A stretch of 32,400 bases of DNA from Actinomycetota bacterium (GTDB lineage Bacteria > Actinomycetota > Actinomycetes > Nanopelagicales > Nanopelagicaceae). Each line of letters opens with the position of its first letter. Within the stretch, counting starts at the first letter, position 1. Made by a program: the position numbers and the translations under genes. Below the pieces are notes generated by a model. The model was not told the origin of the DNA and made no database searches. It saw nothing but the letters and a program-made list of their open reading frames with translations. The stretch covers positions 1 to 32,400 of the forward strand of contig VGAG01000013.1 of the NCBI GenBank assembly GCA_016870835.1. The letters are read 5' to 3'. Below, one piece after another: positions 16,375 through 21,105 of this stretch.

Positions 16375-16403
16375 AGGTTAGCCCGGCCTTAAAGGACTGG
16401 CAA
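16375..16403 (-). promoter_or_regulatory. leuA leader promoter
   Basis: -35 TTGCCA (16398-16403), a 17-base spacer, and -10 TAACCT (16375-16380), seven bases before the leader ATG. The -35 lies in the last codons of glnA. This is the best-formed -35/-10 pair in the window. Confidence 0.65.
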
Positions 16404-17711
16404 ATACCGATCTAGTTCGTATGCGGTGACCTGGCGGCGATAGTCCTCCCACTCGGCCCGCTTGTTACGGAGGAAGTATTCAAAGACATGCTCACCGAGA
16501 ATCTCTCGGACTAACTCACTTTTTTCCATCGCAGATATCGCCTCATTTAAATCGCGTGGCAGCGCCGTATTTGAGCCCTTCTCCAACTTGTACCCACGCT
16601 CAATTCCGCGCAGCCCCGCCGCAATAGTTACTGCAAAAGCTAGGTATGGATTACATGCCGAATCTGGGGCGCGAAATTCAATACGTGTTGAATTCTCTTT
16701 CTTTGGCTTGTACATCGGTATGCGAATTAGAGCGTCACGATTCTCTTTACCCCAATTGATTCGAGCGGGCGCTTCTCCGCCACCATGAAGTCGTTTATAA
16801 GAATTAACCCACTGATTTGTGACCGCTACCAATTCAGGTGCATGTGTAATTACGCCGGCGATAAAGGATCTCGCTACATCAGAAAGTTGATCTTCGCGCC
16901 CTGCTTCATAGAAGGCATTCGCTTCACCCTTAAAGAGCGAGAAGTGGGTATGCATTCCAGAACCCGGAAACTCTGTGAAGGGTTTGGGCATAAATGATGC
17001 AAAGACACCTTGATCAAGTGCCACCTCTTTAATGATGTGGCGGAAAGTCATGATGTTATCTGCAGTGCTTAGCGCATCGGCATAACGAAGATCAATCTCT
17101 TGTTGGCCAGGTGCGCCTTCATGATGGCTAAATTCAACCGATACCCCAGTCGCTTCTAGCAGAGTAATTGCCTGGCGCCGAAAATCATGGCCAAGTGCTG
17201 CTGGGGTCTGATCAAAATAACCGCCGGAATCAATTGGGATTGGTTTTACTCCTGGGACTGGCGCCTCTTTAAAGAGGAAGAACTCAATTTCGGGGTGGGT
17301 GTAACAAGTGAAACCCAAATCAGCAGCTCGCTTTAAAACACGCTTTAGAACATTTCTTGGATCTGATGGCGAAGGTGTTCCATCTGGAAGGACGATGTCA
17401 CAAAAAATTCGGGCAGCTCCCGGTTTTGCAGTTCGCCAAGGAAGTACTGAAAAAGTTGAAGGGTCTGGCTTTGCCAACATATCTGATTCAGTTCCGCGAG
17501 CGAAGCCTTCAATTGCTGAACCATCAAAACCAATTCCTTCTGCAAAAGCATTTTCAAGTTCAGGTGGGGCAATAGCAACAGATTTCAAATAGCCAAGGAC
17601 ATCTGTGAACCAGAGCCGTACAAACCTTATGTCGCGCTCTTCCAAGGTGCGAAGGACGAACTCTTCTTGTTTATTGAGCGCTGCACCGCTTGAGGAATCT
17701 TGGGGAACCAT
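16389..17711 (-). CDS. glnA2: glutamine synthetase type I, GlnA2 subgroup
   Basis: A 440-residue enzyme. EEFVLRTLEERDIRFVRLWF, GFDGSAIEGFARG and SVLPWR mark the N-terminal beta-grasp; HPEIEFFLF, EFSHHEGAPGQQEIDLRYADAL, GSGMHTHFSL and IEFRAPDSACNPYLAFA are active-site blocks. It joins ammonia to glutamate with ATP. It matches the shorter GlnA2 class of actinobacteria and lacks the NLYDLP-type adenylylation loop of GlnA1, so GlnE control is unlikely. It follows cysE by 35 bases, with a small inverted repeat just before ATG 17711. Confidence 0.93.
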   Translation of the reverse strand: MVPQDSSSGAALNKQEEFVLRTLEERDIRFVRLWFTDVLGYLKSVAIAPPELENAFAEGIGFDGSAIEGFARGTESDMLAKPDPSTFSVLPWRTAKPGAARIFCDIVLPDGTPSPSDPRNVLKRVLKRAADLGFTCYTHPEIEFFLFKEAPVPGVKPIPIDSGGYFDQTPAALGHDFRRQAITLLEATGVSVEFSHHEGAPGQQEIDLRYADALSTADNIMTFRHIIKEVALDQGVFASFMPKPFTEFPGSGMHTHFSLFKGEANAFYEAGREDQLSDVARSFIAGVITHAPELVAVTNQWVNSYKRLHGGGEAPARINWGKENRDALIRIPMYKPKKENSTRIEFRAPDSACNPYLAFAVTIAAGLRGIERGYKLEKGSNTALPRDLNEAISAMEKSELVREILGEHVFEYFLRNKRAEWEDYRRQVTAYELDRYLPVL

Positions 17712-17746: not shown

Positions 17747-18250
17747 TTAAATCGCGAAGAGCTCACCCTCATCCTGGTTAGTACGGGCCGGAATATCGCG
17801 CGTTACAACGCTATTAGCGCTAATTCTTGCGCCCTCGCCAACAGTGATTGGACCAAGAACTCGCGCGCCCGCTCCAATCACAACGGAATTTTGGATGGTG
17901 GGGTGGCGCTTTCCATGCATGAAGCGGGTCGAACCAAGAGTTACATCGTGATAGATCATCACATCATCGCCCACGATTGCGGTCTCGCCAATCACAACTC
18001 CCATGCCGTGATCGATAAAGAATCTTCTTCCGATCTTTGCGGCGGGATGGATCTCGATACCGGTCACAGTTCGAACCCAGTTCGCATAAAGTCGCGCCAA
18101 GAGTTTTAACCTAACTCGCCAAATGAAGTGTGCGATTCGGTAACCCCAGACCGCGTGGACGCCGGGATAGCTGAGCGCGACCTCTAGTCGACTGCGCGCT
18201 GACGGATCTCTCTGCAACGCGGTATCGAGATCTTCAATTATTCTTCTCAT
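17747..18250 (-). CDS. cysE: serine O-acetyltransferase
   Basis: A 167-residue left-handed beta-helix acyltransferase of the short EpsC/CysE type. An N-terminal helical part ([20 protein letters not shown]) precedes hexapeptide repeats [23 protein letters not shown] and [12 protein letters not shown], which carry the expected catalytic His residues. It acetylates serine for cysteine synthesis. ATG 18248-18250 is chosen; a GTG directly before it is also possible. It begins three bases after the cysK stop, so both are in one operon and the products probably meet in a cysteine synthase complex. Confidence 0.94.
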
Positions 18251-18253
18251 CAC

Positions 18254-19183
18254 TTAAGCATCCATTAAATCTTTATAGAGAATTGTTGAGAGATAGCGCT
18301 CTCCAAACGAAGGAATGATTACAACTATGTTCTTGCCTTCGAATTCACTTCGCTTCGCAACTTGCGAGGCAGCCCAGAGCGCGGCTCCGGCTGAGATTCC
18401 AGCGAGAATTCCCTCTTCAGCCCCAGCGCGTCTTGCATACTTAACTGCATCATCAGCTTCGACATCTATCACTTCGTCATAGACGCTGCGATCTAAAATC
18501 GGAGGAACAAAGTTTGGGCCAATTCCTTGGATTGGATGTCCACCGGGTTTGCCACCGTTGAGTATTGGAGATGCTGCGGGTTCAACCGCGAAAATCTTTA
18601 ACGATGGTTTGCGCGCCTTTAGAACCTGTCCGATACCGGTAATCGTTCCGCCAGTACCAATCCCAGCCACAATCGCATCAACGTTTCCATCGGTATCGCG
18701 CCAGATTTCCTCGGCGGTAGTCTTGCGATGAATCTCAGGGTTGGCTTCATTTTCAAATTGGCGCACCAAGACAGCGCCACTTGCCCCCAACTCTTCAGCT
18801 TTGGCAATCGCACCTTTCATGCCTTCTGCGGCTGGAGTTAAAACTAGCTCGGCGCCAAATGCTCGAAGTAAGGTCCGACGTTCTTTAGACATGGAATCTG
18901 GCATCGTGAGAATGGTCTTGTAGCCGCGCGCTGCTCCAACCATGGCAAGAGCAATTCCGGTATTCCCTGAAGTCGCCTCAACAATCGTGCCACCCGGCTT
19001 TAATTGCCCGCTCTTTTCAGCCGCATTAACCATCGCGATACCGATTCGATCTTTAACGGTGCTAGTTGGGTTATAGAACTCAAGCTTTGCTAGAACATTT
19101 GCCTTTGCCCCATCGGTAATTCGATTTATCTTCACCAGCGGGGTGTTTCCAAATACCTCTGTTATATCGTTGTAAATCTTCAC
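18254..19183 (-). CDS. cysK: cysteine synthase A (O-acetylserine sulfhydrylase)
   Basis: A 309-residue PLP enzyme. K44 in [11 protein letters not shown] is the cofactor lysine, [10 protein letters not shown] (71-80) binds substrate, and [12 protein letters not shown] binds the PLP phosphate. It makes cysteine from O-acetylserine and sulfide. GTG 19181-19183 has AGGAG six bases upstream (19190-19194). The 206-base region before it holds a cysteine leader peptide, so expression probably answers to cysteine supply. cysE follows directly. Confidence 0.96.
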
Positions 19184-19253
19184 TTTAATCTCCTAAAAAT
19201 TGAATTTGGGCATGGGTAAAAACGGGAGGCGTATTGCGCGAATTAGCGCGGGA

Positions 19254-19337
19254 TTACTTACAGCAGCCGCAAGAATTTGCGCGGCCAAAGTCGATTACGC
19301 GACGGCGAGTGAAGTGCCAATTCGGAATCGAAAACAT
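19254..19337 (-). CDS. cysteine-responsive leader peptide of cysK
   Basis: ATG 19335-19337 to TAA 19254-19256 encodes 27 residues. TRRRVIDFGR followed by SCGCCK matches the pattern of small leader peptides found upstream of sulfur and cysteine genes in actinobacteria (R-R-x-x-D-x-x-R, then a Cys-rich end). Three cysteines in four codons next to the stop would stall a ribosome when Cys-tRNA is scarce. Downstream, GCGC-TAATTC-GCGC can form a short stem before the cysK ribosome site. TAAAAT seven bases before ATG predicts a leaderless message. Confidence 0.82.
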   Translation of the reverse strand: MFSIPNWHFTRRRVIDFGRANSCGCCK

Positions 19338-19344
19338 GGTGCGA

Positions 19345-19350
19345 ATTTTA
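19345..19350 (-). promoter_or_regulatory. -10 element of the cysK leader
   Basis: TAAAAT on the minus strand, seven bases before the leader-peptide ATG. A -35 is poor (TTAGCG at the 17-base spacing). Confidence 0.5.
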
Positions 19351-19389
19351 CTCAACTGAAGAAAATGCGCTAATCGCAAATGATTTGCA

Positions 19390-21105
19390 CTAATTGCCCT
19401 CACGGAATGTGGATTCATTCCAACGAGATGTCATCGGTAGACGGCGATCCTTACCAAAGGCGATTGGCGTTACCTTCGGTCCAGGCGGGTATTGGCGCCG
19501 TTTATATTCGGCGCGGTCCACCAATCCAATAATCCGCTCAACAAGTGAGCGTTCAAATCCGGCTGCGATGATGGCGCTGGCATCTCCGCCCTTATCAACA
19601 TAAAGCTCAAGGATTTGATCAAGTTGATCGTACGGAGGAATTGAATCGCTATCTTTCTGGCTCGGGCGAAGCTCGGCGCTCGGTTCTTTCTCAATTGAAT
19701 TTACGGGAATAGGCGGAGTTGCTCCGGCTTTAGTTGCGCTCTCATTGCGCCACTTTGCTAATCGCCAGACATCAACTTTAAATACATCTTTGATCGGGGC
19801 GTATCCCCCGACCGCATCGCCATAAAGAGTCGAATAGCCAACGGCTAACTCAGATTTGTTTCCAGTCGCAAGAACTAGGTGCCCTTCTTGATTCGATAGC
19901 CCCATCAATAGCGAGCCCCTAACTCGGGCTTGGACATTCTCCTCAGCCAGACCCTTAAGCGTGGTCGCAGCTAGGAATCCTTGAACCACACTCTCAATTT
20001 CAATAGTCCGAAGTTGAATACCGAGGTTTTTTGCCAGCGCCTCGGCATCACTCTTTGAATGATCCGATGAGTACTTACTAGGAAGGCTTACTCCAAAAAC
20101 TCGATCCTTGCCGAGCGCATCTACCGCGATGGTTGCAACCAGCGCCGAATCGATTCCTCCCGATAAGCCCAGAACTACTGATTTAAAGCCATTTTTTCCG
20201 ACATAATCGCCGAGCCCTAAAACTAAAGCAGAATAAATCTCTTCGGTCTCAGCAAGCGGCGCAGCAATTTCTCTTTGGACTTGACCACTTGGCGCGCTCA
20301 ATTTTTCCGAAATCACTAAATCAGGTTTTGCAGTTGAAGCTTCGACTTCGATATCGACAATAAGTAGGTCTTCTTTAAATTGTGGCGATCTCGCTAGAAG
20401 CTCTCCCGATTTTGCGACCACCATCGAATCGCCATCAAAGACGAGGTCATCTTGACCACCGAACATATTGGTGTAGACAAGGGGCGCTCCGATTTGGGTG
20501 GCCCGCTTTCTAACTAATTCAAGCCTTAAATCATCTTTTGATCGCTCATATGGGCTGCCATTTGGGACAAGAACAAGTCCTGGGTTTCGCGCGGCGAGTT
20601 CTTGCATCGGCCCCTCATCGCGCCAGATGTCTTCACAGATTGCAATACCGATATCAAGTCCATTAAAGCGAACTACCAACGTTCCCTCACCCGCAACGAA
20701 GTTTCGGAACTCATCAAAGACCCCATAATTTGGAAGATGGCGCTTTACATATTTTGCCTTGACCTCACCGCCATGAAGAAAGGCAACCGAATTAAGTGGT
20801 CGTCCATCATCATCGAGAAATCCAATTACAACTAAAACATCCCCAAGGCCCAATGTAGAAAGCGTCTTTGCAAGTTCCTTAACCGCCTTCGTTGAGGCCG
20901 CCCGAAAGGCAGGGCGAAGGGCTAAGTCTTCGACTGGATAGCCAGTCACAACCATCTCTGGAAAGAGGACGACCTGGGCGCCTTTTGCTTTCGCGCCTTT
21001 AACTGAATTGATAACCAAATTGATATTGCCCTTGATATCTCCAACTACAGGGTTTACCTGCGCGCAAGCGAGGCGAATTGTTCCGCTCTCTTGCGACCTG
21101 GGCAT
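19390..21105 (-). CDS. nadE: NAD+ synthase, glutamine-hydrolysing
   Basis: A 571-residue two-domain enzyme. The N-terminal nitrilase-fold glutaminase has the triad E50 (LFPEM), K121 (KRHLPNYGVFDE) and C157 (AICEDIW). The C-terminal NAD synthase has the ATP loop LSGGIDSALVA at 314-324, and LATGNKSELAVGY with STLYGDAVGGYAPIKDV. It amidates deamido-NAD with ammonia taken from glutamine. ATG 21103-21105 is six bases after TACTCT, a leaderless arrangement identical to that of galA. panB is divergent. Confidence 0.96.
   Translation of the reverse strand: MPRSQESGTIRLACAQVNPVVGDIKGNINLVINSVKGAKAKGAQVVLFPEMVVTGYPVEDLALRPAFRAASTKAVKELAKTLSTLGLGDVLVVIGFLDDDGRPLNSVAFLHGGEVKAKYVKRHLPNYGVFDEFRNFVAGEGTLVVRFNGLDIGIAICEDIWRDEGPMQELAARNPGLVLVPNGSPYERSKDDLRLELVRKRATQIGAPLVYTNMFGGQDDLVFDGDSMVVAKSGELLARSPQFKEDLLIVDIEVEASTAKPDLVISEKLSAPSGQVQREIAAPLAETEEIYSALVLGLGDYVGKNGFKSVVLGLSGGIDSALVATIAVDALGKDRVFGVSLPSKYSSDHSKSDAEALAKNLGIQLRTIEIESVVQGFLAATTLKGLAEENVQARVRGSLLMGLSNQEGHLVLATGNKSELAVGYSTLYGDAVGGYAPIKDVFKVDVWRLAKWRNESATKAGATPPIPVNSIEKEPSAELRPSQKDSDSIPPYDQLDQILELYVDKGGDASAIIAAGFERSLVERIIGLVDRAEYKRRQYPPGPKVTPIAFGKDRRLPMTSRWNESTFREGN

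Follow-up and report, generated by a model that had tools for sequence, protein, structure and literature searches.

A probable cysteine-responsive leader peptide ahead of the cysK-cysE operon in freshwater Nanopelagicaceae

The DNA analysed here (the window, 32,400 nucleotides) belongs to the draft genome (1.0 Mb, 76% complete) of a freshwater member of the Nanopelagicaceae. On its minus strand, the intergenic gap of 206 bases between the end of an NAD synthase gene (19390) and cysK contains a short open reading frame (ORF) for a cysteine-bearing leader peptide, which is preceded by a promoter element and an operator-like site and followed by the genes for cysteine synthase A and serine O-acetyltransferase. 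The features of this region, read along the minus strand, are as follows.

19369 to 19388, minus strand: operator-like site of 20 bp, GCAAATCATTTGCGATTAGC, consisting of the palindromic GCAAATCATTTGC together with GATTAGC, 51 nt upstream of the leader start codon
19345 to 19350, minus strand: -10 element TAAAAT, with a predicted transcription start within 0-2 bases of the leader ATG, judged by the TAnnnT spacing in relatives
19254 to 19337, minus strand: leader peptide ORF MFSIPNWHFTRRRVIDFGRANSCGCCK, 27 codons plus stop (ATG 19337-19335, TAA 19256-19254)
19281 to 19319, minus strand: peptide core W-x-F-T-R-R-R-V-I-D-F-G-R, codons 7-19, from the alignment (in-frame dN/dS 0.10)
19260 to 19271, minus strand: Cys codons TGC GGC TGC TGT (C23, C25, C26), for which a sensing role is proposed, one codon short of the stop
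19184 to 19253, minus strand: spacer from leader to cysK, 70 nt, C-rich and G-poor (first 56 nt with 21 C versus 7 G)
19236 to 19249, minus strand: short stem GCGC-TAATTC-GCGC directly 3' of the leader stop, from the sequence
19190 to 19194, minus strand: Shine-Dalgarno site AGGAG of cysK, kept in most relatives
18254 to 19183, minus strand: cysK, cysteine synthase A, GTG start (NCBIfam TIGR01139, 454 bits, cut-off 351)
17747 to 18253, minus strand: cysE, serine O-acetyltransferase, directly 3' of cysK (TIGR01172, 231 bits, cut-off 211)

This layout agrees with what an earlier note on the same DNA had described. The 27-codon ORF with its own -10 element inside the 206-base gap upstream of cysK, the string TRRRVIDFGR followed by three Cys codons in four positions (codons 23, 25 and 26), the cysK-cysE pair downstream, both genes of which exceed their NCBIfam cut-offs, and the distance of 35 bases from the end of cysE to a glutamine synthetase gene were all found as it had stated. 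The GCGC stem and the good ribosome site that it had reported are likewise present in this sequence, but the stem is not conserved as such: inspection by eye of 24 relatives revealed that some carry a stem of different sequence at this position and others carry none. Beyond that description, the present analysis adds the minus strand, the leaderless geometry, the operator-like site, a second leader and selection outside the Cys codons. The glutamine synthetase gene itself (16389-17711) scores 421 bits, slightly below the type I GlnA cut-off of 429. A longer in-frame reading of the leader (54 aa, from an ATG at 19418) was rejected; many relatives carry an in-frame stop a few codons 5' of the inner ATG, and the inner ATG was therefore taken as the leader start.

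For comparison of the leaders, 24 non-identical cysK loci of Nanopelagicaceae were retained. A core of the form W-x-F-T-R-R-R-V-[IV]-D-F-G-R followed by a Cys tail recurs upstream of cysK both within the genus and in several further Nanopelagicaceae genera, and the core motif was not found within 450 nt upstream of cysK in Microbacteriaceae, Dermacoccaceae, Chloroflexota and others. At E <= 1e-5, a leader profile (built from 22 leaders) matched 104 of the 201 family genomes and 57 of the 99 better genomes, counts that pool the cysK leaders with other leaders. Pairwise identity within the core was 0.90, 0.91 and 0.58 at codon positions 1, 2 and 3, respectively, and pooled dN/dS was 0.10 in frame compared with 1.6 and 2.0 in the shifted frames; the five codons preceding the core gave a value of 0.51. 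The presence of the same core ORF at the same place in relatives, with codon position 3 the most variable, puts the ORF far beyond chance. Together, the dN/dS values and the codon-position pattern show that the leader ORF is selected at the peptide level and, by inference, translated. The comparison of codon conservation across relatives, which the earlier note had proposed as a check, thus revealed a conserved core, and its claim of an actinobacterial Cys-leader pattern near sulfur genes is upheld by a conserved coding ORF whose Cys codons cluster close to its stop and which is located before cysK-cysE. The tail itself varies among relatives (CGCC, ICC, CCC, CSC, CAC and TSC) and always bears Cys, with a single Cys retained in the leaders of L019 and L024. 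In the alignment of relatives, residues W, F, T, R12, R13, V, D, F and G are conserved to a degree equal to or above that of the Cys residues.

A TAnnnT box ends 6-7 nt ahead of the leader start codon at 23 of 24 loci, and no Shine-Dalgarno site was found between this box and the leader start at the 24 loci. The mean distance from the -10 element to the transcription start in Streptomyces lividans is 6.3 nt (PMC8079986). Because the distance from the -10 element to the ATG matches this -10-to-start distance, with no Shine-Dalgarno site between them, the leader mRNA is predicted to be, and probably is, leaderless. Farther upstream, the operator-like site takes the form GCRA-N4-TTYGCRA-N-T-N-GC, the first base of which lies 50-51 nt ahead of the start codon in 24 of 24 relatives; at least 12 of its positions are nearly invariant among them and its distance is fixed. 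The loose palindrome GCRAWNNNWTYGC gave too many matches to be of use as a search pattern and, on account of this excess, was replaced by the longer pattern GCRANNNNTTYGCRANTNGC, which has only two matches in the source genome, both upstream of Cys leaders. The operator-like pattern also falls almost exclusively upstream of leaders in other genomes of the genus. The 20-bp site looks like a putative operator of a regulator.

The leader appears to have been gained and lost, as judged from the CysK tree, on which the leader label needs three changes, in a manner that fits one gain and two losses. Four loci (L026, L027, L039 and L041) have no leader, and in these the operator-like site lies 51 nt before the cysK ATG and the TAnnnT box 6 nt before it (spacing by eye), a geometry that predicts a leaderless cysK mRNA. 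These four loci form one well supported group within the leader-bearing clade. At another locus with no leader (L023), the operator-like site lies 73 nt ahead of cysK and a Shine-Dalgarno site is present. In a single case (locus L170, G003:C7:36245-36322), cysK is missing and the leader-operator unit precedes a shortened cysE, with both leader and operator altered at conserved positions, as if they were decaying after the loss of cysK.

Further leaders in the draft source genome were sought by profile. A second Cys leader, MCQGLFTKRRVIDFCRVTSQLCLL (G000:C45:623-676, minus strand, locus L131), precedes a gene for a DUF4395 membrane protein and has the operator-like site 52 nt ahead of its ATG. 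A degenerate core pattern applied to the source genome gave 20 matches, only two of which are real leaders. Against NF042933 (leader_Ms5788A), the cysK leader scores 17.0 bits (E = 0.0035), below the cut-off of 45, and 15.3 in the genome search. With a threshold of E <= 0.1, 84 of 98 class genomes contained members of this family, 19 of them above the cut-off, and the best members class-wide have rhodanese-type sulfurtransferase or DUF4395 genes downstream. The cysK leader and the Ms5788A type share the core [KR]RR-x-[VI]-D-[FL], with Cys codons between it and the nearby stop, and a position ahead of sulfur genes, and many Ms5788A members also carry a TAnnnT box just 5' of the ATG. They differ in that the family core reads LTKRRAVDLCR whereas that of the cysK leader reads FTRRRVIDFGR, and in that the cysK leader is located before cysK-cysE, unlike the sulfurtransferase/DUF4395 context of NF042933, into which the second leader fits. 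Leaders in Nanopelagicaceae precede cysK, DUF4395 or sulfurtransferase genes. Two leaders of the same family, L266 (G061) and L267 (G080), lie ahead of sulfurtransferase genes whose products start with a signal-peptide-like stretch. Given the shared core and the second leader in a DUF4395 context, the most fitting view of the cysK leader is that of a sibling to the Ms5788A type, below the family cut-off and in a new place. The Ms4527A family (NF042936) also matches weakly, along the core and the Cys tail (13.8 bits), but the cysK leader is far below its cut-off of 45.

Polycysteine leaderless short ORFs of mycobacteria have reportedly been described by Canestrari et al. in 2020, a study cited in PMC9094748 and PMC13236596. 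The leaders discussed here resemble such ORFs in their predicted leaderless geometry, in their Cys codons near the stop and in the cysteine genes downstream; however, Nanopelagicaceae belong to another branch of the phylum, and their leaders, known here from sequence, have fewer Cys codons and give no sign of Shine-Dalgarno masking. Cysteine leaders have also been predicted in cys operons of Mycobacterium and P. acnes and for cbs of B. longum (PMC1262725). These share with the cysK leader runs of Cys codons near the stop and the lack of a conserved terminator, but cysK-cysE is not among the operons described in the passages considered, and cysK is absent from the text. PMC9094748 and PMC13236596 cite experiments in which M. 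smegmatis responded to cysteine, as well as cysteine-responsive attenuation in mycobacteria.

We consider it quite probable that the ORF upstream of cysK encodes a cysteine-responsive leader peptide (attenuator) that controls the cysK-cysE operon. According to this model, the promoter with its operator-like site would give rise to an mRNA beginning at or beside the leader AUG, and because of this start, ribosomes would load onto the leader without a Shine-Dalgarno site. When charged Cys-tRNA is sufficient, the ribosome would pass the Cys codons and exit at the stop, and cysK-cysE would be kept low; when Cys-tRNA is scarce, the ribosome would halt on the Cys codons that closely precede the stop, covering the start of the spacer, and expression would rise. 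The paused ribosome might be read out by Rho-type termination in the C-rich spacer, which is slightly favoured, by access to the ribosome site of cysK, or by mRNA stability. We infer that the mRNA is leaderless, that the leader is translated, that ribosomes stall on its Cys codons and that cysteine is what the system responds to; such stalling is the natural reading given the mycobacterial relatives that have been studied experimentally. With respect to the ribosome-stalling control of cysK-cysE claimed in the earlier note, the conserved coding Cys leader speaks in its favour, but folding did not predict that the ribosome site is occluded in a conserved way, and nothing bearing on the tentative extension of this control to glnA2 emerged.

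Several observations count against this attenuator reading. The number of Cys codons varies and drops to one in a few relatives (L019 and L024), and the conserved core sits outside the Cys codons, although a pure counter of Cys codons would have no use for it. No conserved GC-rich hairpin followed by a T-run was seen by eye in the spacers of 24 relatives, and there was no Rfam match in the interval between leader and cysK; the intrinsic terminator between leader and gene that marks a classical attenuator of the trp type was thus not found.

A Rho-type read-out is allowed by these data. With the same sensor, release at the leader stop would bare the C-rich, G-poor spacer, upon which Rho could load and end transcription before or in cysK, a step that we propose only tentatively; conversely, a stalled ribosome may shield the spacer, as in the tna operon, and we regard this other half as conceivable with equal reserve. 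Rho is encoded, and the involvement of Rho in mycobacterial cys operons is raised in PMC1262725. The spacers contain 349 C to 173 G, a C excess above that of 36 control intergenic stretches (Mann-Whitney p = 1.8e-4), a statistic in which the related sequences are not independent and the controls derive from crude ORF calls. However, the spacers show no enrichment of the pyrimidine motifs CC and YC that belong to Rho sites (YC 0.115 versus 0.131 in controls), and the spacers are short (51-98 nt, with one of 133).

Alternatively, with the same sensor, a stalled ribosome could keep open an RNA fold that otherwise hides the AGGAG of cysK, a reading that we find possible but rather doubtful. For the cysteine leaders of mycobacteria (M. 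smegmatis), PMC13236596 cites Shine-Dalgarno access as the mechanism, and a good Shine-Dalgarno site is preserved in nearly all relatives. Folding of the 24 relatives nevertheless predicted a Shine-Dalgarno access of 0.33 with the leader free and 0.35 with it covered, the same as for shuffled spacers. Applied to 25 class-wide Ms5788A-type loci, for which control of this sort is plausible and of which some have doubtful downstream starts (gaps above 300 nt), the same folding test gave 0.26 versus 0.29 (p = 0.06). Since the known family shows next to nothing in this test, the negative result for Shine-Dalgarno masking is weak and of low power.

The conserved core may have a more active part, as an arrest peptide in the ribosome exit tunnel that sets the pause at the Cys codons, with the Cys codons or cysteine setting the arrest. 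Its residues are under strong selection at the amino-acid level and are conserved like the Cys residues or more so, and a KRR-V/I-D-F/L core is retained class-wide, but the core might instead serve codon context or a small protein, and we hold arrest to be somewhat unlikely. The measured selection outside the Cys codons does make pure codon counting look incomplete. It is very improbable that the ORF encodes an independently functioning small protein (e.g., for metal or thiol binding) whose place before cysK is secondary: peptide-level selection would fit such a role, but the arrangement of the Cys residues varies freely although the tail stays rich in Cys, homologous ORFs are always located at the head of sulfur genes, and the ORF appears to have been lost in two lineages that retained cysK.

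Returning to the cysteine-responsive attenuator, the leader very probably gauges the cysteine supply and would represent a new branch of a control device known from mycobacteria. Cysteine leader peptides were already known in mycobacteria and a few other Actinobacteria; what is new is that such a leader precedes cysK-cysE throughout Nanopelagicaceae, that it has its operator-like site in common with the second leader, that leader and enzyme replace one another at equal distance from the promoter, and that selection was measured outside the Cys codons. Cysteine leaders now extend to freshwater Actinobacteria that are abundant and have very small genomes, in which few regulators remain, and here the leader stands ahead of the last two steps of cysteine synthesis. 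Because, depending on the lineage, either the leader or cysK itself is placed at equal distance from the promoter that starts it, gain and loss of the leader constitute a natural experiment. Selection acting away from the Cys codons also raises the question of whether codon hunger is all that causes stalling in this family as a whole, Streptomyces and mycobacteria included.
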